Virus record (IMG/VR): IMGVR_UViG_3300035456_000038
Span: 1-31,480 of that record
Strand: one strand, 5' to 3'
Origin: a virus
DNA: 31,480 bases
Shown here one piece after another: positions 183 to 29,650 of this stretch (position 1 is the stretch's first letter; every line of letters starts with the position of its first letter). A program made the position numbers and the translations under genes. The notes under the pieces were generated by a model. That model saw only the letters and a list, made by a program, of their open reading frames with translations. It was not told the origin of the DNA and ran no database searches.

Positions 183-250
183 ATCCCGCGTCGTCTTCGA
201 CTCCTGGGATAATTCGCTTTGGGCTTACGTTCGGAAGCCACAGTCTCATT
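183..250 (-). repeat. two-hairpin dispersed repeat, copy E
   Basis: Read on the minus strand, this copy starts in the stop codon of the 1616-residue tail gene with AATGAG, continues through a hairpin with GGCTT/AAGCC arms, then the conserved core AAAGCGAATTATCCC, then a second GC-rich inverted segment. The same flanks and core occur at 10249, 21972, 26165, 27211 and 29581. Its orientation relative to the genes is opposite to the four copies that sit in front of start codons. Confidence 0.7.
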
Positions 251-10248: not shown

Positions 10249-10313
10249 AATGAGCCTTTCCCGATTTATCGGGATTAGAGCGAATTATCCCTGAGCCGCA
10301 GGCGAATGGGGCT
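10249..10313 (+). repeat. two-hairpin dispersed repeat, copy A
   Basis: Plus-strand reading: AATGAGCCT, then a hairpin with TCCCGA/TCGGGA arms, TTAG, the core AGCGAATTATCCC and a second inverted segment (GCC-GCA-GGC). It fills the whole gap between the frameshift extension stop (10315) and the tape-measure start. On the coding strand its last bases read AAAGGCTCATT and abut the ATG, so the element provides the Shine-Dalgarno sequence. Confidence 0.75.
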
Positions 10314-12371: not shown

Positions 12372-12386
12372 GATTATTTAACCTCC

Positions 12387-12420: not shown

Positions 12421-12423
12421 TTT

Positions 12424-12618: not shown

Positions 12619-12646
12619 ATGCCCTCCTATTTTTTATTCGCTATTG

Positions 12647-12823: not shown

Positions 12824-12842
12824 TTCAAACCCATCTTTCGGT

Positions 12843-13718: not shown

Positions 13719-13739
13719 AAATTTGTTTCCTTAAAGCTT

Positions 13740-13761
13740 CCCTCTCCCTTGCGGGAGAGGG
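13740..13761. repeat. hairpin between gp35 and gp36 genes
   Basis: A perfect 9-bp stem, CCCTCTCCC/GGGAGAGGG with a TTGC loop, lies in the 51-bp gap. No T-run follows on the coding strand, so it is not a normal terminator. CCCTCTCCC-type inverted repeats are common dispersed elements in bacterial genomes, which would fit the repeat-rich character of this phage. Confidence 0.55.
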
Positions 13762-13769
13762 TTTGTTTG

Positions 13770-14045
13770 TTAAACATTTTTTTTGATCAGTTTAAGCAAA
13801 TCCGCTTTCGTCGATTTAGGCGGTATTACTACGCCCTTTTCCGTCAAGATGGCTTCGAGTTCTTTGTTGGGCATTTCGTCGTAATCAACTTTTTTGATTT
13901 CTTCGACTACCAGCATCGGCTCGGCTTTTAGTGCTGCCAATTCGGCAGGCGTGAATTTTCCGTCCGGATATTCCTTTGCCTCGACAGTGTGGGCGATGCC
14001 GCAACGCCGGAAGCCGGGTTTTTTACTTTTAATTTTTATGGGCAT
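13770..14045 (-). CDS. Mu gp35-like protein (HI1506 type)
   Basis: 91 residues. It begins MPIKIKSKKPGFRRCGIAHT, continues with YPDGKFTPAELAALKAEPMLVVEE (the 'F...L..L...P.L.V' core of the Mu-like gp35 family) and ends with a small helix-extended-helix segment (NKELEAILTEKGVVIP, then STKADLLKLIKK), a fold used for nucleic-acid or protein binding. It follows the capsid gene as in Mu. AAAGGAGG lies seven bases upstream. Confidence 0.85.
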   Translation of the reverse strand: MPIKIKSKKPGFRRCGIAHTVEAKEYPDGKFTPAELAALKAEPMLVVEEIKKVDYDEMPNKELEAILTEKGVVIPPKSTKADLLKLIKKNV

Positions 14046-14067
14046 GGTTGCCCTCCTTTCAATGGAA

Positions 14068-14092
14068 CCTTCCGCCGCAATGCGGCGGAAGG
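14068..14092 (-). repeat. strong hairpin after the capsid gene
   Basis: An 11-bp perfect stem, CCTTCCGCCGC/GCGGCGGAAGG with a three-base loop, starts 17 bases after the capsid gene stop. There is no T-run, so complete termination is unlikely. A stable 3' hairpin here could protect the capsid message from exonucleases or reduce readthrough into gp35, giving more capsid than downstream proteins. Confidence 0.6.
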
Positions 14093-14108
14093 AACTTTAA
14101 TTATTTGT

Positions 14109-15014: not shown

Positions 15015-15033
15015 GGTTTTCCTCCTGTTTTAA

Positions 15034-15104
15034 ATTCGTTATTCGTTATTCGTTATTCGTATCTCGTGAAGCGTGAGATACTCTTCACGCTTCACGCTTC
15101 ACGA
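15034..15104. repeat. ATTCGTT tandem plus GTGAAGCG array
   Basis: About four tandem copies of the 7-mer ATTCGTT (15034-15060) run directly into ATCTCGTGAAGCGTGAGATA and then three overlapping CGCTTCACG units. The second part can fold back (CGTGAAGCGTGA with TCACGCTTCACG). It lies between the decoration-like gene and the capsid gene and is the most complex member of the array family. Confidence 0.7.
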
Positions 15105-15109
15105 TATTG

Positions 15110-16303: not shown

Positions 16304-16322
16304 CTTTTCTTTCCTCCTTTAA

Positions 16323-16379
16323 TTGTGAAGCGTCACACGTGAAGCGCAAGACACGAACCCCGCTTCACGAGATACGCTA
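16323..16379. repeat. GTGAAGCG-type repeat array
   Basis: Two GTGAAGCG units followed by the inverted CGCTTCACGAGATACGC, between the protease/scaffold gene and the decoration-like gene. The inverted units can pair across a 14-base centre. Confidence 0.7.
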
Positions 16380-16380
16380 T

Positions 16381-16917
16381 TTACTTGTTGTATTTTTTGA
16401 AAGTTTCGTCATCGATCCCCATCATCTTGTTGACTGATTTTTGCAGATCATCTGACACTGCTGTGTTCTGATCTTTAGCCACAACAATTTCAGTTACCGG
16501 AATAACGCTGCCAACAGGCCGTGACAGGACAATCGATTTGAACGACTCCGGATTTTTTTTAGCCAGATCATTGCCCCATTTGGCCAGTTCGTCGGGGCTG
16601 GTCTTGCCTTCTTTGAGCGCCAGAGTTACAAGATCAGTCTGCTCCATATCGGCAATTTTAGTTTTGAGCGCTGCGACTTCCAGCGACAATGTTTTGGCCA
16701 CATCCGCCGGTGCTTTGAGCGATGCGACTATTGCGATAACTTCATCTTTGCCCGCTTCCGTTTTCGCGCCTAAAGCATCCAATACTTCCTTGCAGGCGAT
16801 AACCGGTGTTGCTGTTTCCAGCGTCTTGACTTTATTAATCAGTATTTCCACCGCTTCGTTGACTTTGTCCTCGGCAGCGTCTGCTGCGAGGCCTAATAAT
16901 TTTTTCACTTTATCCAT
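16381..16917 (-). CDS. nested scaffold protein from internal start (gpZ-like)
   Basis: Codon 161 of the protease gene is an ATG preceded by AAAAAGGAGG at an optimal distance (GGAGG at 16930-16926). Initiation here would make a 178-residue, highly helical protein identical to the C-terminal half (MDKVKKLLGLAADAAEDK ... KKYNK), the usual form of a scaffold. In Mu the scaffold gpZ is made in the same way from inside gene I. The perfect internal Shine-Dalgarno is seen; use of the start is inferred. Confidence 0.8.
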   Translation of the reverse strand: MDKVKKLLGLAADAAEDKVNEAVEILINKVKTLETATPVIACKEVLDALGAKTEAGKDEVIAIVASLKAPADVAKTLSLEVAALKTKIADMEQTDLVTLALKEGKTSPDELAKWGNDLAKKNPESFKSIVLSRPVGSVIPVTEIVVAKDQNTAVSDDLQKSVNKMMGIDDETFKKYNK

Positions 16918-17397
16918 GCTGCTTTCCTCCTTTTTCAATTTGTTATTTGATTCATGATTTAACTTTGCTACAATCGGATTCAAATTATTGATCTTCGGTG
17001 TGTTGGTTAGAGCCACGTTGATGAGCTGGATAATTTTACGGTCTCCAGCCCGAAGCGCCATTACCGGTGAAAAATATTTGTATTCCCGATTATCCAAATA
17101 ATCTTTTGCCTTCTTAGTCCAGTCCACCACCGCCCACAGACCATTTTTACCTTTCCACGTCAGATTTTTTATCCATCCTGCTGCCGGGGCCTGAACGTCC
17201 GCCAATGTTTGATGTTCATAATCGACAACCATGTCATTGCCGCGTGCGCTGAATGCGGCAATAATGGCGTTGGCTCCCTGTTCATCAAGATAGGCCGGTT
17301 TATCTCCGTTGATTTCGATCTTACCCTCCGGCAGAACCTGAAACTCTGCAGGCGCTCCGGTCATTTCTTTTAGAACTGCAAAAATAAAATTATCCAT
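16381..17397 (-). CDS. prohead protease with scaffold domain (Mu gpI family)
   Basis: 338 residues. Mu gpI cleaves the scaffold during head maturation. The N-terminal ~150 residues show the I-protein pattern: LPEGKIEINGDKPAYLDEQG, then DMVVDYEHQTL (likely active-site His in a YEHQ motif), then GWIKNLTW, GLWAVVDWT and YKYFSPVMAL followed by LTNTP. A Lys-rich linker leads to the C-terminal half, which is helical and Ala/Lys/Glu-rich like a scaffold (KVNEAVEILINKVKTLE). The start has GAGAGG nine bases upstream. A second in-frame start for the scaffold part is listed separately. Order matches Mu genes F-G-I-T. Confidence 0.92.
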   Translation of the reverse strand: MDNFIFAVLKEMTGAPAEFQVLPEGKIEINGDKPAYLDEQGANAIIAAFSARGNDMVVDYEHQTLADVQAPAAGWIKNLTWKGKNGLWAVVDWTKKAKDYLDNREYKYFSPVMALRAGDRKIIQLINVALTNTPKINNLNPIVAKLNHESNNKLKKEESSMDKVKKLLGLAADAAEDKVNEAVEILINKVKTLETATPVIACKEVLDALGAKTEAGKDEVIAIVASLKAPADVAKTLSLEVAALKTKIADMEQTDLVTLALKEGKTSPDELAKWGNDLAKKNPESFKSIVLSRPVGSVIPVTEIVVAKDQNTAVSDDLQKSVNKMMGIDDETFKKYNK

Positions 17398-17402
17398 TTT
17401 AA

Positions 17403-17846
17403 TTATCCTCTCTGTGACAGGTAGTTTCTCATGCCTTCCTGGAAGACTGCATTAACATCGATTTCATTTACTGCATCAGTTACCCAGGGACGGCCTTTCA
17501 TACCAGCCGTTGATTTGACCGGATGTTTCGCACCCGGCCAGAACATTGCCTTTTTATTTGTCGGGACAATACGCTTGTGATAGATTCCAAAAAGGCCGGT
17601 GCCTTCATGAACAAAGAACGCATAGGGTGCCGTAAAAGACAAAATGCCCTTGAGTCCATCATCCAAAACGCTCGTAGTACGGGAGCGGGCAAGATTGCCT
17701 GAACGCACGGGCGCATCCTTGACTGCCAGGGATTCCAATGTGGCCAACAGGTTAATCATGCCAGCACGATGCGCTCCGCTGAAATCATCTATAAGTTTTT
17801 TCGACAATTGCCCGATGTCAGGTTTTATGGTCGTGATAATATTCAT
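17403..17846 (-). CDS. HK97 gp10-like / virion morphogenesis protein
   Basis: 147 residues with the gp10-like pattern: APVRSGNLARSR, then TAPYAFFVHEGTG, KKAMFWPGAKHPVKSTAGMKGRPWV and a final helix ending GMRNYLSQRG. Such proteins close the tail or connect head and tail. In Mu the equivalent position is gene G (gp31). The start overlaps the portal-MuF stop by four bases (ATGA), giving translational coupling. Confidence 0.88.
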   Translation of the reverse strand: MNIITTIKPDIGQLSKKLIDDFSGAHRAGMINLLATLESLAVKDAPVRSGNLARSRTTSVLDDGLKGILSFTAPYAFFVHEGTGLFGIYHKRIVPTNKKAMFWPGAKHPVKSTAGMKGRPWVTDAVNEIDVNAVFQEGMRNYLSQRG

Positions 17847-20026
17847 GCAGCGCTCCTGATCACATGTTTAATGACAATGCCGCGGCAATGCGGATGATAA
17901 GGCGGCAACAGGCCTTTAGCCGCGATAGTGTCGGCGTTATCAATTGTTGGCGTATTCTCCTGGGCGCTTATCTCGGCGGCATATTCTTCCGGAGTCAATC
18001 CCGTCTGACGGATCATGTTTCCATAAGCTGTGGCGACGCTGATTACTCTGCCGTTCATCTCCGCGCAAAATTCGCATTCCTCTGTCGGTTCGTAAACTTC
18101 CAGTTCGGTTATTCCGGCTTCCTGATATTGCGCAACCGCAGCCCAGTTCTGAATTCTCATCACGCTGGTATCGATAATCCGGCCTACCTGCCAATCTTCC
18201 AGATCCGTAAGTTTCTGTTCGAAAAGGTCGCGGAAGGCTTGAATGTTTTCCGGATCCTGCCTCCCGAATAATCCAGCTCCGTTTTGCAGATAACGTTCAT
18301 TTAAAAAGTTTTTTACTGCGCCCACCGCATCCGGATTCTGTATCCACTTAGAGATATAAAAATTATCGATGTTGGCCAAGAAGTTCATGGCGCGGGTATC
18401 CGGGCCACCGAAGCCTATCAATGCAGTAGGGTTGCTAAAGGCATTATATATTTCAGCGATGGTTGCACCGCTTATTGCTACTGCGCCGAAAGACGTTCCG
18501 AGAATATTTTGCACTGCGGCGGTGAATTCAACCTCCGATGGCATTACTCGCTGCTGTTTTAAATATGTTTCTATTTCATCTAATGCACCGGCGCGGGCAT
18601 CTTGCAGGGAGGGTCTGATGCTTTCCATATAGGCCGCAATCCAATCATCAATCGATTGTCCGGGTCGTAAAGGCTTATCGGCGGCAGCAATCGTTATTGT
18701 CCTTTTGCTCCGATGTTTATTTTTTGCAGGAAGAAAATTGCCAAAAGGTTGAGACTTTGACGGCGACAGAACGGTTTCGCCTTTTTTAGGCAGCGGGATT
18801 TTAAAACGTTCAGATACATGCTCTGCGGAGATCGGTTGCCCTATATCGGATGCTCCCTTGTAAACCTCAATCAGCGTTTTTAAATCTTCTTCGCGCTGAT
18901 ACAAAATATTAAACCAGGGCAGCGGCTTATCCCAGCCGAAGTTGTAGCCAACCAGTGGGCGGATGATTTGATACCGGACGGTTTTGGAAAGTGATTCCGA
19001 GTCCGCCTTAATCAGATCATGCCGCACTTTATCTTGTGCAGCTTCATTACCCAGTTTGCCCGGCGTGCCTTCTGTTGTTGCCGTCTGGCCGAGAATGGCC
19101 TTGGACATCTGCTTGTCACAGAAAGTAGCCAGGGTTTCATAAACATTGTTCGTGCCGGTATTTTTGACTGCTTCGACAAATTCGATTTCCGTATTTTTGG
19201 AGATGATCCCGGCGGCGTCTGATCCCAGGGATTGAATGGCGGCGATGAGCGCATCTTTATCGGACGTGCTCGCGCCGGAGTCGTAACGGCCCAGCCGCAG
19301 CGGCATGCCGAAGATTTCAGCAAAGGCAACCCAATCCTTGATGCCGTAATTTTTAAAGAGGTACATCCACGCGCAAACGCGCAGCAGACCGGCGCGGGTA
19401 TCATAACCGGAACGGGCTTTATAGCGATGGTAAACCAGTTTGAAGGGAGGCATTATCTCGCCATTGAACGGTTCGGCTTCCGTCAGTATCCTCGGAGCCT
19501 CTACGCTCTTTGCCCATACATTGATCGAGCCGCGCTCATAAAAGACAGCCTTCTTGGCGTGTATCCAGCTAATACCGCCGATGACAGCCTTGCCTCCGGT
19601 TGTATCCCAGAGAATTTCGCAAAGAGAATAACCCTTGCCGATGGCATCGAGCATGTCGAGCATTGCGTCGTCAAAGTTCTCCAGATTAAAAAGACAATCG
19701 GCGACAAAATCTCTAATCTTTTTACTTTCGGCGCTTTCATCCCAGGGAGCAATTTCATAATCCAGACCCTGAACGGCATTTTTGCGGGTCTGCAATTCTG
19801 AAAAGAGATGTGTATCTTTTTCTTCCATCTCTTCAAACAATTCTGCCTGGCGCAATACATCTCCGGTATCCGCTTCTTTAAAAATAGTGGACAGGCGTTG
19901 CGGTGTAAGCCCGCCTGAAGGATAATTGGACATTCGGTCCCGGACTGTGGTTACAGCTATCTCGCGGGTTTCCGGTTTAGATTTTACCTGAACTTCCCGG
20001 CCAAATTGATCAAAAAGAATACTCAT
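17843..20026 (-). CDS. portal protein fused to MuF-like head protein
   Basis: 727 residues in one open frame. Residues 1-~430 are a DUF935 (Mu gp29) portal, the 12-mer at the DNA entry vertex: TPQRLSTIFKEADTGDVLRQ, SELQTRKNAVQGLDYEI, IGKGYSLCEILW, KNYGIKDWVAFAEIFGMPLR, then KAILGQTATTEG. Residues ~500-727 match the MuF (gp30) minor head protein, which enters the head with the DNA: IIDTSVMRIQNWAAVAQY, then CEFCAEMNGRV and the ending PPYHPHCRG with paired Cys/His that may bind metal. In Mu these are two genes. No internal ribosome binding site is obvious at the junction, so this looks like a true fusion. The start overlaps the terminase stop (TAATG). Confidence 0.92.
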   Translation of the reverse strand: MSILFDQFGREVQVKSKPETREIAVTTVRDRMSNYPSGGLTPQRLSTIFKEADTGDVLRQAELFEEMEEKDTHLFSELQTRKNAVQGLDYEIAPWDESAESKKIRDFVADCLFNLENFDDAMLDMLDAIGKGYSLCEILWDTTGGKAVIGGISWIHAKKAVFYERGSINVWAKSVEAPRILTEAEPFNGEIMPPFKLVYHRYKARSGYDTRAGLLRVCAWMYLFKNYGIKDWVAFAEIFGMPLRLGRYDSGASTSDKDALIAAIQSLGSDAAGIISKNTEIEFVEAVKNTGTNNVYETLATFCDKQMSKAILGQTATTEGTPGKLGNEAAQDKVRHDLIKADSESLSKTVRYQIIRPLVGYNFGWDKPLPWFNILYQREEDLKTLIEVYKGASDIGQPISAEHVSERFKIPLPKKGETVLSPSKSQPFGNFLPAKNKHRSKRTITIAAADKPLRPGQSIDDWIAAYMESIRPSLQDARAGALDEIETYLKQQRVMPSEVEFTAAVQNILGTSFGAVAISGATIAEIYNAFSNPTALIGFGGPDTRAMNFLANIDNFYISKWIQNPDAVGAVKNFLNERYLQNGAGLFGRQDPENIQAFRDLFEQKLTDLEDWQVGRIIDTSVMRIQNWAAVAQYQEAGITELEVYEPTEECEFCAEMNGRVISVATAYGNMIRQTGLTPEEYAAEISAQENTPTIDNADTIAAKGLLPPYHPHCRGIVIKHVIRSAA

Positions 20027-21432
20027 TAGTAGGCACCTCTTTGCGAACTATCAACGCGACGCTTTTTAACGCTCGTATATTCAGCCGGACCGCCCGGTGT
20101 CGATGCGGCATGAATGGCCAGCGCCAATGCCCAAAACCGGTCGGCGTGGCCTTCCGCTGAACGCTCGGCAGTAAAACGAATATTGCCTGCCGCGGTTGTT
20201 TCTTTGGTTACTGCGCGCAGATCGGCGCGGACATGCGGGTCATAAGGGATTCGCAGTTTTTTATCTTCCATCTTGCCGCGCACCGGATAAGCCAACGCCT
20301 CTTTGACGTGTGGCGTAAAAGTCACCAGTTCAACTTTATGCTCACCGAATTTCTCCTGAGCATCATCGCCCCAGCCTATTCCCAGACCGGTATAATCGAA
20401 ACATGTGCGGTTAATAATGGGATACCAGGGGAAGAGAACCTTTTCCTGATCCGGTTTTTTCATATTGCGCAAAGTGATTACTTTGCGGGTATAAAGTACG
20501 TCACCCAGGAGTTCCAATATCCACAACACAGTCAGATTCTTCTTGCGGCCGATATCCAGCCCGGCATACAGGCGGCGCGATGTCTGGCTCTCGTATTCCA
20601 TTTCCCATTTGTCATTTCCGGCATATTCGCAACCGGCAATAAGATCGTATTCCAGGAAGGCCAAGGCATCGTCTGCCGGTTGACACATATATTCCTGCTG
20701 GAATGATTCCTCGTCGGCGCAACCGGATTTGACAAAATCAAAATATCGAGTTTCATCCATCCCCTGAATTTCATCATCTTCCGGAAGGGTCTGCTGCAGT
20801 TTATAAAGAAAACCCTGATTGAGAGCATCCTGCAGCGTGACGCGATGCATGCTTATTTTTTTAGGGTTGCCATGTTCGCGTGCCTCGCGGATCAACTGAT
20901 TGAAAAAATTATAACTGCCGCGATGAGTCGAAATGACTTCGAGCGATCCACCCCATGTAATACCGGGGTAGGCTATAGACCATAATTTGCGCGGATCAGG
21001 ATGCAAGGCAAATTCATCGAGCACGCGAGCTCCGCGTTTGCCTGCCTGCGCATCCGGATTAGAACTCATGGAATGAATGCGTTTGCCTGATGCGAAATTA
21101 AGTACATAAGCGGAGATTTTGTTTTTCTCGTCGATGACCTTTTCACCGAGATCTTCCGCCGCTATTTGCAGCATCTGCGCCCACATCTTACAATCTTCGA
21201 TGAAGAGCCGTGCCTGTAGATCATCGCGGCTGGAAACCCATTGATCATTTCTCGCTCCTGCTTCCGCCGTGCGTTCGGTGCAGGCATAAGAAGTACTCCA
21301 GGAGATCCCGATCTGCCGCGCTTTTTCCATCAGTTTCAGGCGTGAGCGATCATCAATCCATAGTTCCTGAAATTTTAGGAAGAGACCTTCTGGATTATCT
21401 GGAATTATTTTGGCGTTTCCTTTGTGTTCCAT
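20026..21432 (-). CDS. large terminase subunit (Mu gp28 family)
   Basis: 468 residues. ATPase and nuclease that packages phage DNA through the portal. ATPase: LMEKARQIGISWS is the Walker A-like region, GARVLDEFALH the Walker B with catalytic Glu, and LEVISTHRG the coupling motif. RNase-H-like nuclease: Asp in YAGLDIGRKKNLTVL, Asp in CFDYTGLGIGWG and the C-terminal Asp in GHADRFWALALAIHA. All three acidic positions are present, so the protein should be active. It overlaps the upstream DUF3486 gene by one base and is followed by the portal fusion, as in Mu. Confidence 0.95.
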   Translation of the reverse strand: MEHKGNAKIIPDNPEGLFLKFQELWIDDRSRLKLMEKARQIGISWSTSYACTERTAEAGARNDQWVSSRDDLQARLFIEDCKMWAQMLQIAAEDLGEKVIDEKNKISAYVLNFASGKRIHSMSSNPDAQAGKRGARVLDEFALHPDPRKLWSIAYPGITWGGSLEVISTHRGSYNFFNQLIREAREHGNPKKISMHRVTLQDALNQGFLYKLQQTLPEDDEIQGMDETRYFDFVKSGCADEESFQQEYMCQPADDALAFLEYDLIAGCEYAGNDKWEMEYESQTSRRLYAGLDIGRKKNLTVLWILELLGDVLYTRKVITLRNMKKPDQEKVLFPWYPIINRTCFDYTGLGIGWGDDAQEKFGEHKVELVTFTPHVKEALAYPVRGKMEDKKLRIPYDPHVRADLRAVTKETTAAGNIRFTAERSAEGHADRFWALALAIHAASTPGGPAEYTSVKKRRVDSSQRGAY

Positions 21433-21959
21433 TATTGAGCCATCTTCAAAACATCTCGGCGAATTTTTTTAAGCGCTTCCGGAGAAACGCCTTCTTTCTT
21501 TGCAGTTTCCGCGGCGCAATCCGCTGCGGCTTCGATTGCTTTTTTCCGTGCCTCTGCCAGCCACTTCTTTTGTGAGACGGAATAGCGGGTGATATCGGCG
21601 ATTGCACGGCCCAGTTTGACAAAATTAATATTTTCCGCGTCGATGTCCTTCATGTCGACGAACACCTTAAATAATTTTTCCTGATACATCCGGACTATGG
21701 CATCGTTCATTTTTCCGGCATCATCGCCGACGCTGTCTGTAAGCGTTACAGCCATATCCGTTGCTGCTTTTACCGCTGCAATCTTGTCTTCAAATTGCTG
21801 GCCATAGCGATGCGCTGTAGATCTTTTAATTTCAAAACCGCGCTCGGCGAACCAGGCTTCATATTGATCGTAATTGCGAAAGCCTTCAGCCAGGAGTTTC
21901 TTTTCAAACTCGGCTTTAATTTCGGGCGGCAATATTGCTATTTGTGAACGCTGGGGCAT
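21432..21959 (-). CDS. DUF3486 protein (Mu gp27), probable small terminase
   Basis: 175 residues, directly upstream of the large terminase and overlapping it by one base. The pattern LPPEIKAEFEKKLLAEGF then AERGFEIKRSTAHRYGQQFE is the helix-turn-helix start of DUF3486 proteins, followed by a long helical domain (MYQEKLFKVFVDMKDID, then KLGRAIADITR). These proteins are thought to be the DNA-recognition (small) terminase subunit of Mu-like phages. AGGTGAG lies upstream at a good distance. Confidence 0.9.
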   Translation of the reverse strand: MPQRSQIAILPPEIKAEFEKKLLAEGFRNYDQYEAWFAERGFEIKRSTAHRYGQQFEDKIAAVKAATDMAVTLTDSVGDDAGKMNDAIVRMYQEKLFKVFVDMKDIDAENINFVKLGRAIADITRYSVSQKKWLAEARKKAIEAAADCAAETAKKEGVSPEALKKIRRDVLKMAQ

Positions 21960-21971
21960 TTTCTCACCTAT

Positions 21972-22036
21972 TGTCCCTCTTCGCTACGTTTCGGGGATAG
22001 TTTGCTTTGGGCTTCTCTATGGAAGCCACAGACTCA
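21972..22036 (-). repeat. two-hairpin dispersed repeat, copy F
   Basis: Minus-strand reading starts in the TGA stop of the 102-residue gene (TGAGTCTGTGG), has a hairpin with GGCTTC/GAAGCC arms, then AAAGCAAACTATCCC and a weak second hairpin. It is the most diverged full copy (core CAAAC instead of CGAAT) and has the same orientation as copy E, after a gene rather than before one. Confidence 0.65.
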
Positions 22037-22342
22037 CTGCCATTTAGCCGGGCGGGCGATGCCCGGATCACAATCTACGGTATATTCGGCCACATCAATG
22101 CCGTAACGGCCAATCTTCGCAAACCATTGCGGCCGGTTTTTTTCTATGGTGATTAACTTGCGCTCGGCCAGATAATCCAGCACCCGGCGAATTTCCAGCT
22201 CCGTTGCATCGGGCATTACATCCAGCATTACGGTCCTGATTAATAATTCCGATAATCCAACTTCCTGCGCCTCACGCAGAGCAAACAGAACCAGCCAGCG
22301 CATTTCTTCCCGTCGTGCTTTTTCCATATTTAGACTATTCAT
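22034..22342 (-). CDS. Mu gp26-like winged-helix protein
   Basis: 102 residues, helical N-terminus (RREEMRWLVLFALREAQEVG) followed by a winged-helix-like part (ELEIRRVLDYLAERKLITIEK) and a beta end (GRYGIDVAEYTVDCDPGI). Proteins of this kind lie between DUF2730 and DUF3486 genes in Mu-like prophages; the fold suggests DNA binding, perhaps with the terminase. It overlaps the upstream gene by eight bases and has AGAGGG upstream. The stop codon falls in a dispersed repeat. Confidence 0.8.
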   Translation of the reverse strand: MNSLNMEKARREEMRWLVLFALREAQEVGLSELLIRTVMLDVMPDATELEIRRVLDYLAERKLITIEKNRPQWFAKIGRYGIDVAEYTVDCDPGIARPAKWQ

Positions 22343-22664
22343 GTTTTTTCCCTCTGCCCTGTAAGGCTTCCACGACCAGGTCGCGGAGTTTGTCGAGTTT
22401 CGTATTTATGTTTAAATCGAACCTTATGAAATCCTCCCTGCGCACATAAAGCAGCGGCAGGTCGGTTTTAAGCTGATTCAATTCTTTTGATAATTCCTGA
22501 CATTCCGTGGAGACGGCCTTAATGCCTTTGATCTTTTCATCGATCTTATCCTCCAGCGAATGCATCGAACTGCTGAACATTACTTTAAAGAGAAGCGCCA
22601 TCAGGCCGCCCCAAGCAGCCACCACACCCAAAAGTGCTAAGAATAATTGCCAGTGCTCGTTCAA
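22335..22664 (-). CDS. DUF2730-type membrane-anchored coiled-coil protein
   Basis: 109 residues from a TTG start one base after the upstream stop, with AAGGAG ten bases before it; the longer ATG frame to 22718 would overlap the zinc-finger gene by 53 bases and lacks this site. One membrane span (LFLALLGVVAAWGGLMALLF) is followed by a coiled coil (SLEDKIDEKIKGI, then LSKELNQLKTDL). The family is conserved in Mu-like phages next to gp26/27; its role is unknown. Confidence 0.75.
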   Translation of the reverse strand: MNEHWQLFLALLGVVAAWGGLMALLFKVMFSSSMHSLEDKIDEKIKGIKAVSTECQELSKELNQLKTDLPLLYVRREDFIRFDLNINTKLDKLRDLVVEALQGRGKKHE

Positions 22665-22665
22665 T

Positions 22666-22890
22666 CTATTCCGTCTCCTTTTCCGCTTTAGTCTGACAAC
22701 CGATGCAGCGCACGGCATTTGGATTTGCCTCTATCCGCGCCCTCGGTATGATTTCATTGCAATTCGTACATCTGCGAACTTCGGTATTTGAATCGGGCAG
22801 AGGCATTTGTTTGCGCTTATTGAATAGCGTCCGCATTGCCGCTGCCTCATAGATTTCCGATACCGCCTGAGCACGATCAAGTTCATCCAT
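22666..22890 (-). CDS. TraR/DksA-type zinc-finger protein
   Basis: 74 residues starting at the ATG that overlaps the upstream stop (TAATG); the longer frame to 22992 runs through the neighbour. The N-terminus is a helix (DELDRAQAVSEIYEAAAM) and the C-terminus has the four-cysteine finger CTNCNEIIPRARIEA...RCIGCQ. Short TraR-like proteins bind the RNA polymerase secondary channel like DksA. Phage copies are common next to late genes and may tune host or phage transcription. Confidence 0.9.
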   Translation of the reverse strand: MDELDRAQAVSEIYEAAAMRTLFNKRKQMPLPDSNTEVRRCTNCNEIIPRARIEANPNAVRCIGCQTKAEKETE

Positions 22891-23459
22891 TACCAGCGAT
22901 ACTCCAGATTCAGCATTGCCCGGCCATCGCCCGTAGTTGTTACCTCGCCATAAAGGCCAACATGAATTGCGCCCACACGCAGCACATCCCAACGGGCGTA
23001 AACATCCGCTTCGGTTTTGTCCGATCCGGCAGAGCTAAATCCCCAGCGCAATCCCACCGCGCGTTTGTTTTCCAATGCAAAGAAAGGCAGCGGTTGTTGC
23101 TTGTCGATGATTTCCGTTTTGCCTTCGCCATCAACAATAGTCATCATGGCCGCTACGTCGGTTATCCCTTCATAAGGCGGAATTTCCGCGGCATAGGTGA
23201 TTTGCTTTGTCTTGTCGTTGGCCGTTGCCTCTGGAAGTTTCAATTTTTTTGAGACAGTTTTTTTATCGATAGTTACTATTTTTTTGACCGTTGCTTCGGA
23301 TTTCGGTATTTCCGCCACGGCTTTTATTTCCGGTGCTGTTGTCCATTGTGTTGTCAATAGTTTCGGCAAGTCTACGTAGCAGCCGCGGATGGCGGCTATA
23401 ACTGCCAGCAGCACCAGAACAATTATAATGCCTACGATAATTTTTATTTTTGTTGTCAT
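22890..23459 (-). CDS. membrane-anchored periplasmic protein in the lysis region
   Basis: 189 residues from an ATG with GAGGGG four bases upstream. An N-terminal membrane span (IKIIVGIIIVLVLLAVIAAI) is followed by a Lys/Thr/Val-rich periplasmic part and a C-terminal beta domain (AVGLRWGFSSAG, then DVYARWDVLRVGAIHVGLYG). It sits directly after the transglycosylase where Mu-like phages often carry spanin (Rz-like) genes, but the beta-rich C-terminus is not the coiled coil of a typical Rz. It may be an unusual lysis accessory protein or a phage-encoded envelope protein; neither is shown. Confidence 0.7.
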   Translation of the reverse strand: MTTKIKIIVGIIIVLVLLAVIAAIRGCYVDLPKLLTTQWTTAPEIKAVAEIPKSEATVKKIVTIDKKTVSKKLKLPEATANDKTKQITYAAEIPPYEGITDVAAMMTIVDGEGKTEIIDKQQPLPFFALENKRAVGLRWGFSSAGSDKTEADVYARWDVLRVGAIHVGLYGEVTTTGDGRAMLNLEYRW

Positions 23460-23480
23460 ATTTCCCCTCTTCACTTTTTA

Positions 23481-23510
23481 CGTTTCACGAGATGCGTTTC
23501 ACGAACGACG
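23481..23510. repeat. GTTTCACG repeat
   Basis: CGTTTCACGAGATGCGTTTCACGAACG lies between the transglycosylase and the next gene, two direct units of the GTGAAGCG family with A in place of G in the core. It is the most diverged array. Confidence 0.55.
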
Positions 23511-23511
23511 C

Positions 23512-24144
23512 CTATTTCACAGATACCGCCTGATATTTTTCTCCGGCAGCGCGAATCTTGTAAGGGTAATTGATGTTAACCTTGCATAGACTCAGTTTGC
23601 CGGTACTGGTTTGGATGACCCGCCTTTTACAGCAGGCTTCAACTGCTTTGTATTCGCAACTGGCAGCATTCTCGATTTCCCTTTTAATAGTTTCGACCCC
23701 GCCGTTATAAGCGCGAAAGGCATAATGCCAATCCTTGCAGGAGACTTCGCTGTACAGATACCGGTCGTAAAGGATCATCGCGCGTATTGCCCAGCGCGGA
23801 TTCTGCGGTTGTGCTTTACTGGAAATACTATGCAGGGATTTCTCCTTGCTATGCAGCCACTGTGCAGTAGCCGGTGTAAATTGCCCTAAACCAATATCCC
23901 CGGTGACGCCGGTAACACTAGAAATACAATTGGATTCGACTTCAATCTGTCCCATAAAGTCGTGCGCCGGGGCATCCATCCCAGCATAGAGTCTTGTTTC
24001 TCTCACAACGTGCGGCCAATATTTCAGACAATGGTTGATATTGCCCGAAATACGCTGTCCTCCCTCACATACCGAGGGTAAAAGCGAGAACGACAGCAGC
24101 GTAAAGAATGCCGCGAAAAACCATAATGCTGCGCATTTCTTCAT
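23512..24144 (-). CDS. lytic transglycosylase endolysin
   Basis: 210 residues. It cuts peptidoglycan to release phage. A signal peptide (CAALWFFAAFFTLLSFSLLP) ends near residue 27, so export through Sec is likely. The SLT domain follows: catalytic Glu in GQIEVESNCISS, then GDIGLGQFTPATAQW and the AFRAYNGG motif near residue 155. Several cysteines in the C-terminal third (ASCEYKAVEACC) may form disulfides. GAGGAG lies eight bases upstream. The first 80 bases overlap the end of the holin-like gene in another frame. Confidence 0.9.
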   Translation of the reverse strand: MKKCAALWFFAAFFTLLSFSLLPSVCEGGQRISGNINHCLKYWPHVVRETRLYAGMDAPAHDFMGQIEVESNCISSVTGVTGDIGLGQFTPATAQWLHSKEKSLHSISSKAQPQNPRWAIRAMILYDRYLYSEVSCKDWHYAFRAYNGGVETIKREIENAASCEYKAVEACCKRRVIQTSTGKLSLCKVNINYPYKIRAAGEKYQAVSVK

Positions 24145-24391
24145 GCGATAACTCCTCAGATCGACCGTAATAAGGTTTAAAAAAACAACTCCACATTAAT
24201 TCAGCGCAACCTACCCCGAAGAAAGCCAGGGCTGCCTTATAAACTATAATTCGCAAGGCGTTTTCTCCCTGTGATAGATAGACGGCGGGAACGGCAATCA
24301 AAATAACCAGGCCGAAACGCAGCAAATATTTTTTTGTTTCCTGTTCAAAAGCCTTGATAAATTTTGATTTTACAGTTTTAAGTTTTTCCAT
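24065..24391 (-). CDS. holin-like membrane protein
   Basis: 108 residues from an ATG with GAGG six bases upstream; the longer frame to 24451 runs through a GC-rich hairpin. Three hydrophobic spans are visible: LLRFGLVILIAVPAVYL (~25-42), IIVYKAALAFFGVGCAELMW (~50-70) and IMVFRGILYAAVVLAFTLGM (~88-108). The N-terminus is basic. Size, three spans and position just before the transglycosylase fit a class I type phage holin that controls endolysin release. With an endolysin that has its own signal peptide it would act more like a pinholin or timing factor. Confidence 0.75.
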   Translation of the reverse strand: MEKLKTVKSKFIKAFEQETKKYLLRFGLVILIAVPAVYLSQGENALRIIVYKAALAFFGVGCAELMWSCFFKPYYGRSEELSHEEMRSIMVFRGILYAAVVLAFTLGM

Positions 24392-24410
24392 AAATAACCT
24401 CGTGTGTTTT

Positions 24411-24447
24411 CCCCGGCCGGGTTTAGCCCGTAATCCCGGCCGGGATA
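24411..24447 (-). repeat. GC-rich hairpin in the lysis leader
   Basis: Two CCCGGCCGGG palindromes, 13 bases apart, can pair with each other in a stem of at least ten pairs. It lies between the strong terminator at 24507 and the holin start at 24391, in the 5' leader of the late lysis genes if transcription starts just upstream. No T-run follows. A role in leader structure or late-start control is possible. Confidence 0.5.
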
Positions 24448-24506
24448 GCAAAGAAGAAACCTGGCTAGATTCTTATTCTTTTCATGATGCCCTCTAAGAG
24501 AGATAG

Positions 24507-24553
24507 AAAATAAAAAAGCCCGGCTATCGGGATTTAATCCGACAACCGGGCTT
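24507..24553 (-). terminator. strong intrinsic terminator
   Basis: Minus-strand stem AAGCCCGGTTGTCGG pairs with CCCGATAGCCGGGCTT (about 15 pairs, two G-U) around an A/T loop, followed by TTTTTTATTTT. This ends transcripts coming from the accessory region and from the candidate promoter at 24695-24723, before the lysis and late genes begin. Late genes must start downstream of it or rely on antitermination. Confidence 0.9.
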
Positions 24554-24690
24554 CATGAGCCTCTCTTTGCAAAATGGGCGGTCTAGCCGCCTCTATAATT
24601 TTAAAAGATCATTTCTAATTTTGGCTTCCCTCTGCTTGGCCAAAGGGAAGCCGGGAGATTCCTTATGAGCATCCAGCTCGCTTCGATTAA
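24507..24690 (-). ncRNA. candidate small RNA or attenuated leader
   Basis: From the promoter-like sequence at 24695-24723 to the terminator at 24507-24553 is a ~180-base transcript with no supported reading frame. It contains two further hairpins: GGCTTCCCT/AGGGAAGCC (24622-24653) and GGCGG/CCGCC (24577-24592). The gene-free stretch 24392-24870 as a whole holds, from right to left, a dispersed hairpin repeat, a terminator, an AT-rich segment, this candidate RNA, its terminator and the GC-rich leader hairpin. No riboswitch class was recognised. It could be a regulatory RNA, or a leader whose terminator is overcome for late expression. Confidence 0.4.
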
Positions 24691-24694
24691 CTAC

Positions 24695-24723
24695 ACCATA
24701 AACCAGCAATTGTGAAAAATCAA
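24695..24723 (-). promoter_or_regulatory. sigma70-like promoter candidate
   Basis: TTGATT (24723-24718), 17 bases, then TATGGT (24700-24695) on the minus strand, within AT-rich DNA just after a terminator. Four of six bases match in each hexamer. It is the best promoter candidate seen and would drive the candidate RNA and, with readthrough, the lysis genes. Confidence 0.4.
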
Positions 24724-24801
24724 GCTTTTTTTACAAAAATTTGCAATTATTTTTAATTTCTGCTATTTTTATATATTTACCAAAATTCAAACAAGAAAAA
24801 G

Positions 24802-24830
24802 ATAAAAAAAAAGGGCGACTTATTCGCCCT
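24802..24830 (-). terminator. intrinsic terminator after the accessory genes
   Basis: Minus-strand AGGGCGA/TCGCCCT stem (seven pairs, ATAAG loop) followed by nine T. It lies 41 bases after the stop of the 69-residue gene and should end the early/accessory transcript. Confidence 0.88.
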
Positions 24831-24840
24831 GAAATTTCTT

Positions 24841-24869
24841 TGTCATTCCCGACCTGATCGGGAATCCAG
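24841..24869. repeat. TGTCATTCC-type inverted repeat
   Basis: TGTCATTCCCGACC-TGA-TCGGGAATCCAG, directly after a stop codon. Other copies lie at 25341, 28151 and 30804. The ends TGTCAT and ATCCAG are constant while the stem bases vary. ATTCCC-N-GGGAAT repeats are like the neisserial dRS3 family. Confidence 0.8.
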
Positions 24870-24870
24870 T

Positions 24871-25080
24871 TTATTTCGGTTTTTCTAATCCTTTTAATAA
24901 TCGTTTTATCCATTTTGGGATCGCATCACGAAAAGCCGCACTAAGTTCTTCCCTTTCTTTATTAACCCTATAAGATGTTGCGCCTAGCGTGTTTGATAGT
25001 TCTTTTTCTATCTCAGCATCAGTTGCTCTCTCCGGTAAAGAATAATAATCCCGGAGGTAAACAATAAGTTCTTTATTCAT
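24871..25080 (-). CDS. small helical protein, last accessory gene
   Basis: 69 residues, starting MNKELIVYLRDYYSLPERAT, with GGAGGG a few bases upstream. It is predicted to be all-helical with an acidic first half (ATDAEIEKELSNTLG) and a basic amphipathic end (WIKRLLKGLEKPK). It is followed by a hairpin repeat and then a terminator, so it closes the accessory transcript. No family is recognised; it has no obvious Mor/C-type activator features although it lies where Mu has its middle/late switch. Confidence 0.7.
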   Translation of the reverse strand: MNKELIVYLRDYYSLPERATDAEIEKELSNTLGATSYRVNKEREELSAAFRDAIPKWIKRLLKGLEKPK

Positions 25081-25103
25081 ACTTTTTCCCTCCTAGATTT
25101 ACC

Positions 25104-25286
25104 CTAAAGGGCACTTCGCCGGTCGCCGCGAGATAACAACCATATTCCTAAAAAAACACACGCGCATATTGCAATGACACAACCCCAACAAAGCAAAGCA
25201 CCTTTAATACCAAGTTCATTAATTGCAATAATGGTAACTCCAACCAATGGTAATGCTATTAAACCATACCCTAAAATTTTTTTCAT
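25104..25286 (-). CDS. small two-span membrane protein
   Basis: 60 residues from an ATG with AGAGGTG six bases upstream. Spans: ILGYGLIALPLVGVTIIAI and ALLCWGCVIAICACVFLGIWLL, followed by a basic tail (SRGDRRSAL). The second span has four cysteines. It could be a second holin/antiholin or a superinfection-exclusion protein, but nothing beyond a membrane location can be supported. Confidence 0.65.
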   Translation of the reverse strand: MKKILGYGLIALPLVGVTIIAINELGIKGALLCWGCVIAICACVFLGIWLLSRGDRRSAL

Positions 25287-25340
25287 AATACACCTCTCAA
25301 AACTACTGGACAACAACCATAACAACTTTTCCCTCTCCTA

Positions 25341-25365
25341 GATTCCCGACTGCGCGGGAATGACA
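25341..25365. repeat. TGTCATTCC-type inverted repeat
   Basis: GATTCCCGACTGCGCGGGAATGACA, an incomplete copy in inverted orientation to the one at 24841, between two very small genes. Confidence 0.75.
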
Positions 25366-25383
25366 ACGCTTATGGCTCAGCTT

Positions 25384-25557
25384 TCACTGTTTACTAAGTA
25401 ATGAAAAATGTTTTTCGTTGTTAGCAAATAGCCATTCTTTAAATTTTTCAATCTCTTCGGCAGGAAGATCTTTTGTGGGAACCATATCGTTCATAATTGA
25501 CATGATAATCCGCATCCTCGTAAGGTTTGCGTAAGTGATATACTTTTTTTCGTCCAT
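25384..25557 (-). CDS. small protein of 57 residues, unknown
   Basis: A 57-codon frame with an excellent AAGGAGGG site eight bases before the ATG. The protein starts MDEKKYITYANLTRMRIIMS and contains an acidic amphipathic helix (LPAEEIEKFKEWLFANNEKH), suggesting a small helical bundle. It follows the SGNH-like lipoprotein gene after 12 bases. The overlapping 73-codon frame to 25669 is a shadow of the lipoprotein gene. The strong ribosome binding site makes this a real gene; its function is unknown. Confidence 0.75.
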   Translation of the reverse strand: MDEKKYITYANLTRMRIIMSIMNDMVPTKDLPAEEIEKFKEWLFANNEKHFSLLSKQ

Positions 25558-25569
25558 AATAATCCCTCC

Positions 25570-26151
25570 TTATAGTGCCGCCTTCAATTCCAGCACCTTT
25601 GCTTTGATCAGTGCATTCATAGTTGCGTCCGGATTTATTCCATCCGTGGATGTGAAAGCCATTGCCCATGTATCCACGTAATATTTTGTGCCGCAGATTC
25701 CTTTGATGCTGGTGTTCAGTTCAATAATTTTTGCATGATCGTAGCCGGTAGGAATCTCCGGGATCCCCACGCAGAAGGTATCGCCTTTAATCGACCAGAA
25801 GGTCTTGGCATAACTAACAATCACGTGAGTTAAATCCTGATCAGCAGCTCCGGTGAGATCGTTAATTCCTATGAAGAGGACGGCATTATTCGGCCAAAGC
25901 AATCGGGAATCCGGATTGTCAATGAATAACTGCATCTTCGCCCCTTTAACACCATCGTTTTCCGAACCCGTCCAAAAATTTGCCAGATTCCATGCCATTG
26001 TATCGCCCTTGATTGTCCAGGCCTGAACAGTGGCGGGATATACGGGCGGTGTGGTAGTAGTATCTTCATCATCGCTTTTTTCACAAGATGAAAGCAAAAG
26101 CAATATTGCCACAACGGCTATAATCGACAAATAAAAATGCATCTTTTTCAT
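25570..26151 (-). CDS. lipoprotein with degenerate SGNH-hydrolase-like fold
   Basis: 193 residues from an ATG with GAGGAGG seven bases upstream. A signal peptide ends in the lipobox LLSSC (Cys23), so the protein should be lipid-anchored in the envelope; the mature start is acidic (EKSDDED). Three places resemble SGNH/GDSL hydrolase blocks: GDT at 49-51 (block I, Ser replaced by Thr), IGINDL at 94-99 (block III, Asn kept) and DGIN at 170-173 (block V DxxH with His replaced by Asn). If the assignment is right the enzyme has lost two catalytic residues and may be a binding or exclusion protein. It is not part of the Mu core, so it looks like a cargo (moron) gene that could change the lysogen surface. 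A dispersed repeat ends 13 bases before its start. Confidence 0.7.
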   Translation of the reverse strand: MKKMHFYLSIIAVVAILLLLSSCEKSDDEDTTTTPPVYPATVQAWTIKGDTMAWNLANFWTGSENDGVKGAKMQLFIDNPDSRLLWPNNAVLFIGINDLTGAADQDLTHVIVSYAKTFWSIKGDTFCVGIPEIPTGYDHAKIIELNTSIKGICGTKYYVDTWAMAFTSTDGINPDATMNALIKAKVLELKAAL

Positions 26152-26164
26152 ATTGACCCTCCTC

Positions 26165-26221
26165 AATGAGCCTGTGGATCCCAAAGCGAATTGATCCCGT
26201 CACCGCAGGTGATCGGGACTA
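26165..26221 (+). repeat. two-hairpin dispersed repeat, copy B
   Basis: AATGAGCCTGTGGATCCC, then AAAGCGAATTGATCCC and the hairpin TCACC-GCA-GGTGA. The 3' arm of the first hairpin is deleted, as if by slippage between the two GATCCC-like segments. It lies upstream of the lipoprotein gene in the same orientation as copies A, C and D. Confidence 0.75.
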
Positions 26222-26243
26222 GTACATTAATCTCATATCAATT

Positions 26244-26426
26244 TCAGCCTGCCACTGCAAGCTTTTCCATGTATATCCAGTGTCCGCAATGTTTACATTT
26301 TACGCGGAATTTTTCAGCGTCCGCTTCCAGTATAATGTGACGGCAAATAGGACAGAGAAACTCCGGCCCCGGATTACAATCCATCTTCTGCTTTTTGGCG
26401 ATGACTCTATAGCCGGGATTCAGCAT
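26244..26426 (-). CDS. Com-like zinc-finger protein
   Basis: 60 residues from the ATG that overlaps the upstream stop (ATGCTGA); a GTG 15 bases earlier is possible. It has a CPIC ... CKHC pair of CxxC motifs around EADAEKFRVK and ends IYMEKLAVAG, much like Mu Com, the small zinc protein that binds mom mRNA and activates its translation. No mom gene is seen next to it, so here it may act on another message or only share the zinc ribbon. Confidence 0.7.
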   Translation of the reverse strand: MLNPGYRVIAKKQKMDCNPGPEFLCPICRHIILEADAEKFRVKCKHCGHWIYMEKLAVAG

Positions 26427-26632
26427 GGTCGATGTCCCCACAATCCGCGAGCGTGGTTATAGGTGAACCAGAGACTGATCAGAAAGCCGCCCCATTGCCC
26501 GGCATCCAATGTCGCGTATATCCAGAACGGCTGACCGCATAAGCCAGCGATGAAACCGAACCGGTAATGTTTACCCGCAAAAGCCCAGATAGAAAGGCCG
26601 GAAAAGATAACTATTGCGATTTGAGATATCAT
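26420..26632 (-). CDS. small two-span membrane protein
   Basis: 70 residues. Two hydrophobic spans (ISQIAIVIFSGLSIWAFA and FGFIAGLCGQPFWIYATL) and a Trp-rich third segment (GGFLISLWFTYNHARGLWG). Short proteins with this GLxGQPFWIYATxxAGQWG pattern occur in phage accessory regions; their role is unknown. The start overlaps the upstream stop by one base, the end overlaps the Com-like gene by seven bases. Confidence 0.75.
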   Translation of the reverse strand: MISQIAIVIFSGLSIWAFAGKHYRFGFIAGLCGQPFWIYATLDAGQWGGFLISLWFTYNHARGLWGHRPC

Positions 26633-27210
26633 TACTTGCCTCCGATGCTTTTGATGATAACGCCAACACGGGTAAGGTTCGCTTTTACTTGCTCGTCGGA
26701 CAAAGCAGAGGGCTTTTCATCGCAACGGCAGCGAAAACCGACAGGGGTTTCCTCCGTAGAAAAGCCGAACCCGCCCAACGACTTACTCTCGCGGGCACGC
26801 AGATCTTTCTCTGTCGTCTTCGATTTGTCTTTGCCTTCACGCTCGGAGATACCGATCATTATTTTTTTAAGATAGTTATGGTTCTCCAAATGTTGTCCAA
26901 AGTCTTTCTTGACGCAGATGTCCAACGCTTCGCCAATACCAGCGTGGCTTATCGCGTATGTCTTTTTCTGATAGCTGAATGCCTGAGCATCAAAAAGCTT
27001 TTTCATTTCTTCCAGGATGATCCGCAGTTTTTTGGCTTTGATGTGAAACGGCGTTACTCCAAACAACTGGCAATAACCCATAACCAGGTGCGAATAGCGT
27101 GTTCCGAAAGAAGGCAGTGCCTCAAAGACATATTTCAAATCTTTATCCATCTGAATCGTCATAATATCAATTTCCTTTGTGCAGTAAGGGCAGTTGAGGG
27201 TTGTGGTCAT
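26632..27210 (-). CDS. phage protein with N-terminal CPYC motif, unknown
   Basis: 192 residues. It begins MTTTLNCPYCTKEID, then a long helical middle (YSHLVMGYCQLFGVTP, then IILEEMKKLFDAQAFSYQKK, then NHNYLKKIMIGISERE) and a basic/polar linker before a C-terminal helix (DEQVKANLTRVGVIIKSI). Two further Cys (FRCRC) might complete a metal site with the first pair. The arrangement suggests a nucleic-acid or replication-associated protein, but no family can be named. The ATG is preceded by AAAGG-CTCATT provided by a dispersed repeat, exactly as for the tape measure. Confidence 0.7.
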   Translation of the reverse strand: MTTTLNCPYCTKEIDIMTIQMDKDLKYVFEALPSFGTRYSHLVMGYCQLFGVTPFHIKAKKLRIILEEMKKLFDAQAFSYQKKTYAISHAGIGEALDICVKKDFGQHLENHNYLKKIMIGISEREGKDKSKTTEKDLRARESKSLGGFGFSTEETPVGFRCRCDEKPSALSDEQVKANLTRVGVIIKSIGGK

Positions 27211-27282
27211 AATGAGCCTTTGTTTTCCGCAACGCGGAAAACATTAGAGCGAATTATCCCTGAGCGCAGCGAACGGGATGCG
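27211..27282 (+). repeat. two-hairpin dispersed repeat, copy C
   Basis: AATGAGCCTTT, a 9-bp stem GTTTTCCGC/GCGGAAAAC with a three-base loop, ATTAG, the core AGCGAATTATCCC and a CCCTGAGCGC...CGGG segment. It has the longest first stem of all copies, with a sequence unrelated to the other copies' stems. It supplies the AAAGG site of the 192-residue gene. Confidence 0.8.
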
Positions 27283-28716: not shown

Positions 28717-29182
28717 ATTTGAATTCCTCTTTTTTCTTCCGCTCTGCGCCGATCAAGACCAGTTTGGAATCCGGCCATTTTTTGATTTTATCGCGATCAA
28801 GACTTTCCACTATTTTGATGACATCATTGAAACCCTGTTCTTTGCAATCGGCCAGCGCGGTCTTAGGTATCGTAACTTTGTCGCCGATGCTGTGGATCAG
28901 ACTGCCATACGTGAGGTTGACTACGTCCGTGTCGTTGAAGAGGATGGATTTGTTCTTCTTCATTAAAGACAGGAGTTCTTTCCCTGCGGCAGTAATCCTG
29001 TCTTGCAAAGGCGAAAGCTTCGCCTGATGCGTTGCGGCAAGCGTTTTCATTTCGACATCCGCTTCCTGCAGCATATTCTTTATCCAGAGGGCGTTTTCAA
29101 ACATTTCCGCCAGCAAATTATCTGCTTGGTTTTTGACCTCTGACCCCTGACCACTGACCATTGTTTTCTTATGCTGCTTCAT
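28700..29182 (-). CDS. gam: Mu Gam-like host-nuclease inhibitor
   Basis: 160 residues. Mu Gam binds ends of double-stranded DNA, protects them from RecBCD-type exonucleases and is the phage relative of bacterial Ku. The protein has the family layout: a long N-terminal helix pair (DNLLAEMFENALWIKNML, then KLSPLQDRITAAGKELLSLM), then the strand region FNDTDVVNLTYGSLIHSIGDKVTIP and a final IKKWPDSKLVLIGAERKKKEEF. The start overlaps the upstream gene. Residues ~8-17 (MVSGQGSEVK) are encoded by a TGACCTCTGACC-type dispersed repeat (29134-29161), so the true ancestral start may have been different. Confidence 0.85.
   Translation of the reverse strand: MKQHKKTMVSGQGSEVKNQADNLLAEMFENALWIKNMLQEADVEMKTLAATHQAKLSPLQDRITAAGKELLSLMKKNKSILFNDTDVVNLTYGSLIHSIGDKVTIPKTALADCKEQGFNDVIKIVESLDRDKIKKWPDSKLVLIGAERKKKEEFKYDLKK
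29134..29161. repeat. TGACCTCTGACC-type repeat inside gam
   Basis: TGACCTC-TGACCCC-TGACCAC-TGACCA, four imperfect 7-base units, inside the first codons of gam and read in frame as VSGQGSEVK. A related sequence is at 30012-30036 in the GemA gene. These units are known as common intergenic repeats in proteobacterial genomes (established only as a general impression). Confidence 0.65.
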
Positions 29183-29567
29183 CGCCTGCTGCCTCCATTC
29201 CCAGTTTCAGTTGTCCCAGATAGTTCGGCAGGCTGACCTTTTTAATTTTCGCATTGCGCTTGAGAATAAGCAGGGCGCGATGCTCCGACCGGCGCAGATA
29301 AACGGTCAGTTCGCTTCCGGCTGCCGCATAGTAATATCCGCCGCCGGTGCTTGTGGCGACAGAACAAATCGGAATACCCTCTTCGCGCAGCGACGTAATA
29401 AGCGCCCGGATCGCCCTGGTATCGTTAATCCTGTTTGACCACGGGCGGCCATAGACGGCCTCATAGAGCGCCGCCATACCGATGGCATTGGATTCTCCGA
29501 TGTGGCTGCCCATCTCCGCCAGTAAGCGGTTCCGCGTTTCATTGGTATCAATTTCTGATTTTCTCAT
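29169..29567 (-). CDS. winged-helix DNA-binding protein
   Basis: 132 residues from the ATG with AGGGGG eight bases upstream; the longer frame to 29612 would be translated through a dispersed repeat and gives the low-complexity MGSHSGSTGSLGG, so it is rejected. Residues ~20-85 look like a winged helix: NAIGMAALYEAVYG, INDTRAIRALITSLREEG (recognition helix), ICSVATSTGGGYYYAA (wing). The C-terminus is basic (LLILKRNAKIKKVSLPNYLG). It lies between GemA and Gam, where Mu-like siphophages encode small regulators. Confidence 0.75.
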   Translation of the reverse strand: MRKSEIDTNETRNRLLAEMGSHIGESNAIGMAALYEAVYGRPWSNRINDTRAIRALITSLREEGIPICSVATSTGGGYYYAAAGSELTVYLRRSEHRALLILKRNAKIKKVSLPNYLGQLKLGMEAAGDEAA

Positions 29568-29580
29568 TTTGTCACCCCCT

Positions 29581-29650
29581 AATGAGCCTGTGGATCCCGA
29601 ATGGGATCCCAAAGCGAATTATCCCGTCAGCTTTGCTGATCGGGGACTTT
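29581..29650 (+). repeat. two-hairpin dispersed repeat, copy D (most complete)
   Basis: AATGAGCCTGT, first hairpin GGATCCC-GAAT-GGGATCC, AAAGCGAATTATCCC core, second hairpin TCAGC-TTT-GCTGA, then TCGGGGAC. Both hairpins are perfect. It fills the gap between the 57-residue gene and the winged-helix gene. Its second hairpin supplies the stop codon (TGA) and last four codons of the upstream 57-residue gene. Confidence 0.85.

Follow-up and report, generated by a model that had tools for sequence, protein, structure and literature searches.

Each of the six copies of a two-hairpin repeat in this viral record probably arose when a small mobile DNA element of REP/BIME-like type was inserted there. 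On this reading, the element is non-autonomous, belongs to the chromosomes of Syntrophales bacteria and travels in temperate phages as a hitchhiker. We directly observed a family of such repeats with a covarying structure and its host range, intergenic placement in any orientation, clustering in tandem and inverted arrays, and presence or absence at orthologous sites. The family likely works like a REP; we do not claim that it is one.

The window, by which we mean the whole stretch of 31,480 nucleotides analysed, is a 31.5-kb viral record encoding a portal protein, large and small terminase subunits, a head protease and a transglycosylase. Because these head and terminase genes occur together with Mu-type Gam and GemA proteins, we regard the record as a Mu-like transposable phage, whose hosts we infer to be Syntrophales bacteria (Smithella and relatives). 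Window positions 7000-27000 had no match among annotated phages in a near-DNA search. Nearly all genes of the window lie on the minus strand, so that two copies of the element are in sense and four in antisense orientation.

All six copies that the sequence-only reading had listed are present at the places it gave, although its starts fall 2 nt early on the plus strand, at AATGAG, or mark the low end of minus-strand copies. Of the AATGAG start that it took to be shared, the TGAG part is conserved while the preceding triplet varies (TAA, TAG, CAA or CAG). Its placement of the copies in gaps or gene ends holds for all six, each of which sits at a gene junction. Copy 1 (184..248, minus strand; CTGTGG subtype; hairpin 1 GGCTT/AAGCC; E 2.5e-4 with the covariance model R1 described below) begins immediately 3' of the TAA stop codon of the 1616-aa gene 249-5099(-), which thus ends exactly at the copy and encodes a phage protein with fibronectin type III domains. 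Copy 2 (10251..10311, plus strand; CTTT..TTAGAG subtype; TCCCGA/TCGGGA; E 2.8e-8), read on the minus strand, directly precedes the ATG of gene 7996-10248(-). Copy 3 (21974..22036, minus strand; CTGTGG subtype with the core GCAAACTATCCC; GGCTTC/GAAGCC; E 0.011) lies between ORF 22034-22342(-) and the terminase small subunit gene 21432-21959(-), and the TGA of the copy itself is the stop codon of that ORF. Copy 4 (26167..26222, plus strand; CTGTGG subtype; E 0.01), which lies upstream of a minus-strand gene's ribosome-binding site, has an intact hairpin 2 and a truncated hairpin 1 that is missing its loop and 3' arm. Copy 5 (27213..27278, plus strand; CTTT..TTAGAG subtype; GTTTTCCGC/GCGGAAAAC; E 5.5e-12) stands directly before the ATG of gene 26632-27210(-), and copy 6 (29583..29647, plus strand; CTGTGG subtype; GGATCCC/GGGATCC; E 2.8e-6), in which both hairpins are perfect, lies upstream of the Shine-Dalgarno sequence of the gene in ORF 29169-29612(-). 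At the antisense copies at 10251 and 27213, the element itself provides AAAGGCTCATT directly 5' of the gene's ATG, and a fragment of the element may therefore act as a ribosome-binding site for a phage gene.

As had been proposed, hairpin 1 pairs in five of the six copies, the exception being 26167; the second hairpin is weak in some. Since the six fall into just two subtypes, CTGTGG..CCCAAAG and CTTT..TTAGAG, they are on their own weak evidence of covariation; the wider family, in contrast, proves it. We built R1 from 41 copies, all from outside the window, and applied it to the window, where it retrieved exactly the six copies (E 5e-12 to 0.011) and no other match at E<=1. The sequence-only reading had proposed a covariance search of related genomes; with R1, such a search found further copies in Syntrophales genomes.

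Across the family, the unit is about 77 nt long: [TAR]TGAG is followed by a covarying hairpin, whose loop is a GNA mini-loop, then by the linker CGAAYTATCC and a second hairpin. Hairpin 1 is imperfect, with a 4-bp foot, a 2-nt bulge on the 3' side, an upper stem and the mini-loop; the CGAAYTATCC linker is single-stranded, its last C's closing the second hairpin. TGAG and CGAA..TA..CC are the invariant parts in alignments A1 and A2, and a tandem G.A step occurs at columns 12-13/34-35 in many copies of A2. In an ungapped 55-column alignment of the 41 copies outside the window, 87.5% of paired cells were complementary, versus 65% in shuffles, and the stem covariation score was 0.608 versus 0.206 when shuffled, a value reached by 0/500 shuffles; control structures slid along the alignment scored 0.05-0.14. 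This bears out the earlier proposal that the structure, and not the stem sequence, is kept. The base of hairpin 2 covaries as well: among 47 cores not ending in TCCC, 17 have their complement at the right place, versus a mean of 5.8 over 500 swaps, none of which exceeded 15. RNAalifold placed apical pairs around the GNA triloop (apical C-GNA-G), and GU pairs occur in the stems. GCGNAGC forms an unusually stable mini-hairpin in DNA, which favours, short of proof, folding of the unit as single-stranded DNA.

The family is a high-copy intergenic repeat of the Syntrophales (Smithella and relatives) and is not phage-specific, in line with the mobile hairpin family of the host that the sequence-only reading had offered as one alternative; tens to hundreds of copies reside in Syntrophales chromosomes. 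When 84,980 genomes were scanned with a 21-base gapped pattern, 65 stretches matched, 64 of them in Smithella, Syntrophaceae or Deltaproteobacteria MAGs and the remaining one, chance-like, in an Ignavibacteriae MAG. Within the order, 58 of 155 genomes were positive for R1, about 27 of them at high copy, and in a sample of the phylum all five positives among 395 genomes were members of Syntrophales. All eight genomes that we sampled were positive, with 25 to about 150 scored matches each, several of these counts being "at least" values. We recorded 63 copies in 367 kb of chromosome (G001, G004, G006) and 35 copies in 800 kb (G040), giving 98 host copies in 1.17 Mb at densities of about 4-17 per 100 kb.

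With gapped patterns, some 20 additional viral contigs were also seen to carry the element, often in several copies each; a bare 15-mer gave 42 matches in viral contigs, many by chance. The suggestion that many copies in one phage are unusual must be softened accordingly, as related phages of the same hosts carry five (L038), five (L050) and four (L204). In the MAG contig JAJFTS010000224 (L072), the flanks of the unit match the phage loci L201, L203 and L212; relatives of the window phage thus reside in host DNA, and the L072 copy lies in prophage-like DNA. Rfam yielded no gathering-level match in the window, with lax searches giving chance-level matches only; a literature search with the core sequence brought up nothing relevant, and no description of the family was found in the literature on Smithella or Syntrophus repeats or on REPs in phages. 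With neither an Rfam family nor a paper found, the family appears to be previously undescribed.

Only 5 of the 98 host copies lie inside ORFs of >=120 aa, although 82% of the sequence is coding, and host copies spread over the four arrangements of neighbouring genes as 24/24/17/14. TAA or TAG stands directly 5' of 70 of the 98, a triplet that is not part of model R1. For 60 of the 98, another copy lies within 400 nt, as tandem units or inverted pairs, with same-strand spacings between clustered units that include 69-84 nt; phage copies are mostly single. Among the 20 co-oriented copies in phages, 13 follow immediately on a stop codon (gap 0), and five antisense phage copies abut an ATG whose A belongs to the TAA.

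Comparing gaps in sister phages, as had also been suggested, revealed empty orthologous sites. The site of copy 3 is empty in L173, where TGGTAG is followed directly by TTATG, and filled in L199; copy 5 is also present in sister phage L053/L200 and missing from L199 and others; and the site of copy 6 holds no insert in L201, L203 and L210. At the site of copy 2, L028 and L047 have no unit; the gap (L028:3260-3700, L047:3440-3930) instead holds a different repetitive hairpin (ACGCTTCACGCTTCACG..). Elsewhere, phage L208 has an overlapping TAATG junction that a unit splits in L204, and one intergenic region holds a single unit in L076 and growing mosaics of several different units in L059, L085 and L104. 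Where L104 reads AAAAAATAG followed by TGACAC, L059 carries a 77-nt unit between the two, so that TAG-TGAC becomes TAG-unit-TGAC. In L261, the unit sits within an unrelated repeat that is intact in L246, L239 and L063; in this independent insertion, the triplet before the unit is CAG, not TAR. The L261 unit and the filled and empty orthologous sites show that units have been gained. The unrelated repeat (GGGCTGTTCAAAAATGTTCAGATGCAAGGCGCGCA...ATACGTTGAGCG..TTTGCAGCGCAACG) occurs in several Syntrophales genomes (L246:5643, L239:17337, L063:6964, L110:2303, L243:19266, L270:1645).

Some units have another unit nested within their loop or core (L161:2563-2665, L074:1469-1550, L077-L117), and the same form recurs in several genomes; such composites look like a separate family, as if multiplied whole, and the nested core insertions carry the TAR within the insert. 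Where a unit was added ahead of one already present, the cause could in some cases be recombination between tandem units and not transposition. Across filled and empty sites, neither a clean target duplication nor a fixed right boundary could be defined. Several host sites are common to different species, and part of the family has therefore been inherited vertically.

REP, BIME and REPIN sequences are GTAG- and CGTC-tagged palindromes (PMC3733652, PMC8266576, PMC3116915), in whose hairpins a 5' tetranucleotide is conserved and a bulge, in E. coli, is required (PMC8266576); the REP families surveyed are tagged GTAG or CGTC (PMC3733652). The Syntrophales family resembles them in being a short, extragenic, imperfect hairpin at high copy, with a conserved 5' tag, an internal bulge, subfamilies with alternative complementary stems, and an arrangement as singlets, inverted pairs and BIME-like tandem clusters. 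Unlike REPs, its tag is TGAG after TAA or TAG, its unit has two hairpins over 77 nt with a conserved linker and a GNA mini-loop, and phages carry it in abundance, often with nothing between it and a stop codon. It also lacks the association with a REP-associated Y1 tyrosine transposase (RAYT, TnpA-REP).

These likenesses make it conceivable, though we would wager against it, that this is a classical REP family moved by a host RAYT. Y1 genes are indeed present in 45 of 58 element-bearing genomes, but they are about as common in element-free ones (66 of 97, p=0.27), and across the 155 Syntrophales genomes none of Y1 transposases, reverse transcriptases and TnpB was associated with the element. 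Six of the 27 high-copy genomes, among them the large-contig G040, had no Y1 match in the order-wide search, although an absent gene is weak evidence here because Syntrophales genomes are mostly incomplete MAGs. When eight Y1 loci were scanned without filters, one (L161) carried units, on both sides of its Y1 gene, and the other seven had none; the TGAG tag likewise speaks against a RAYT. Recurrent proteins adjoining host copies formed clusters of which the largest were long and generic-looking, with no candidate mover evident among them.

The unit also resembles IS200/IS605 elements and their MITE derivatives, whose subterminal hairpins are bulged, which lack terminal inverted repeats, and which insert beside a short fixed target with no clear target duplication. 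A target of this type is suggested by the TAA or TAG preceding most host copies and by the pre-existing TAG at filled/empty pairs, but CAG stands at L261 and TAR lies inside the nested inserts. Unlike IS200/IS605 elements, the unit has no transposase or TnpB partner that we could find, is too small to hold both of the usual IS ends, and has an undefined right end. The resemblance to the single-strand chemistry of REPs and IS200/IS605 lies in a conserved structure with free stem sequence, in asymmetry, in the lack of terminal inverted repeats and in apparent insertion next to a short triplet.

On our preferred reading, that of a REP/BIME-like element of Syntrophales carried along by phages, the unit would fold in single-stranded DNA, be recognised by a trans-acting enzyme through its structure and not its stem sequence, and be joined 3' of a TAR-like triplet. 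A phage would gain copies while replicating in, or integrated into, its host and would retain an insertion only if it fell at a gene junction; where the genome is as compact as a phage's, TAR triplets in tolerable places would mostly be stop codons, or TTA/TTAG immediately 5' of a start codon or Shine-Dalgarno sequence. More tentatively, the family may form a class of its own among mobile DNA hairpins recognised by structure, its mover a non-Y1 enzyme, landing at TAR (in practice stop codons) and spreading between Syntrophales chromosomes and Mu-like phages; we hold this to be a minority prospect.

The other alternative raised by the sequence-only reading, an RNA signal used by the phage, found no support. 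Such a signal, kept for the phage's own use as a processing site, mRNA stabiliser, antitermination or packaging signal, would fit the conserved, covarying structure, GU pairs of the kind found in RNA, and the position of copies at gene ends and starts. A strand-specific RNA signal is, however, hard to square with copies that face every way with respect to genes: both orientations are found within the window's transcription unit, and host copies show no preference among the four gene arrangements. As the same sites are empty in sister phages and the bulk of the family is chromosomal, we consider this explanation improbable.

Even less probable is that the units are attC-like sites used by integron integrases. 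Integrases above the curated cut-off are encoded in 59 of 155 Syntrophales genomes, and integrons therefore seem common in these syntrophs. The gene is commoner in element-bearing genomes (33 of 58 versus 31 of 97, p=0.003, uncorrected for phylogeny), and attC sites are similar in style, being bulged, imperfect hairpins recognised in folded form with little sequence conservation; phage units, too, lie between genes. The unit nevertheless has no RYYYAAC/GTTRRRY boxes (the AAC/GTT core), with invariant TGAG and CGAA..TA..CC in their place, and host clusters point both ways and contain no cassettes. Units were not enriched at integrases, with 6 in the 98 kb around ten integrase genes, which is within the background density, and several high-copy genomes (for example G004, G006 and G040) have no integrase. 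Finally, chance similarity among unrelated terminator-like hairpins, to which the two window copies at only E ~0.01 might seem to point, has a negligible probability, being refuted by the search of the window, in which the outside-trained R1 ranked exactly the six copies on top and nothing else, and opposed by the occurrence of families of copies in hosts as well as in sister phages.

Studies of REP-like repeats have usually treated them as fixed parts of gammaproteobacterial chromosomes. The large REP-like family described here differs in its tag, has a two-hairpin unit and shows no visible partner transposase, and it marks the genomes of uncultured syntrophs with a central role in methanogenic communities. 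Its carriage by phages provides natural pairs of filled and empty sites, which turns the spread of REP-like elements into a directly testable question, and supplies a marker by which orphan phage contigs can be tied to their hosts. It is an order-wide variant of the REP-like kind, with phages as an unusual carrier.
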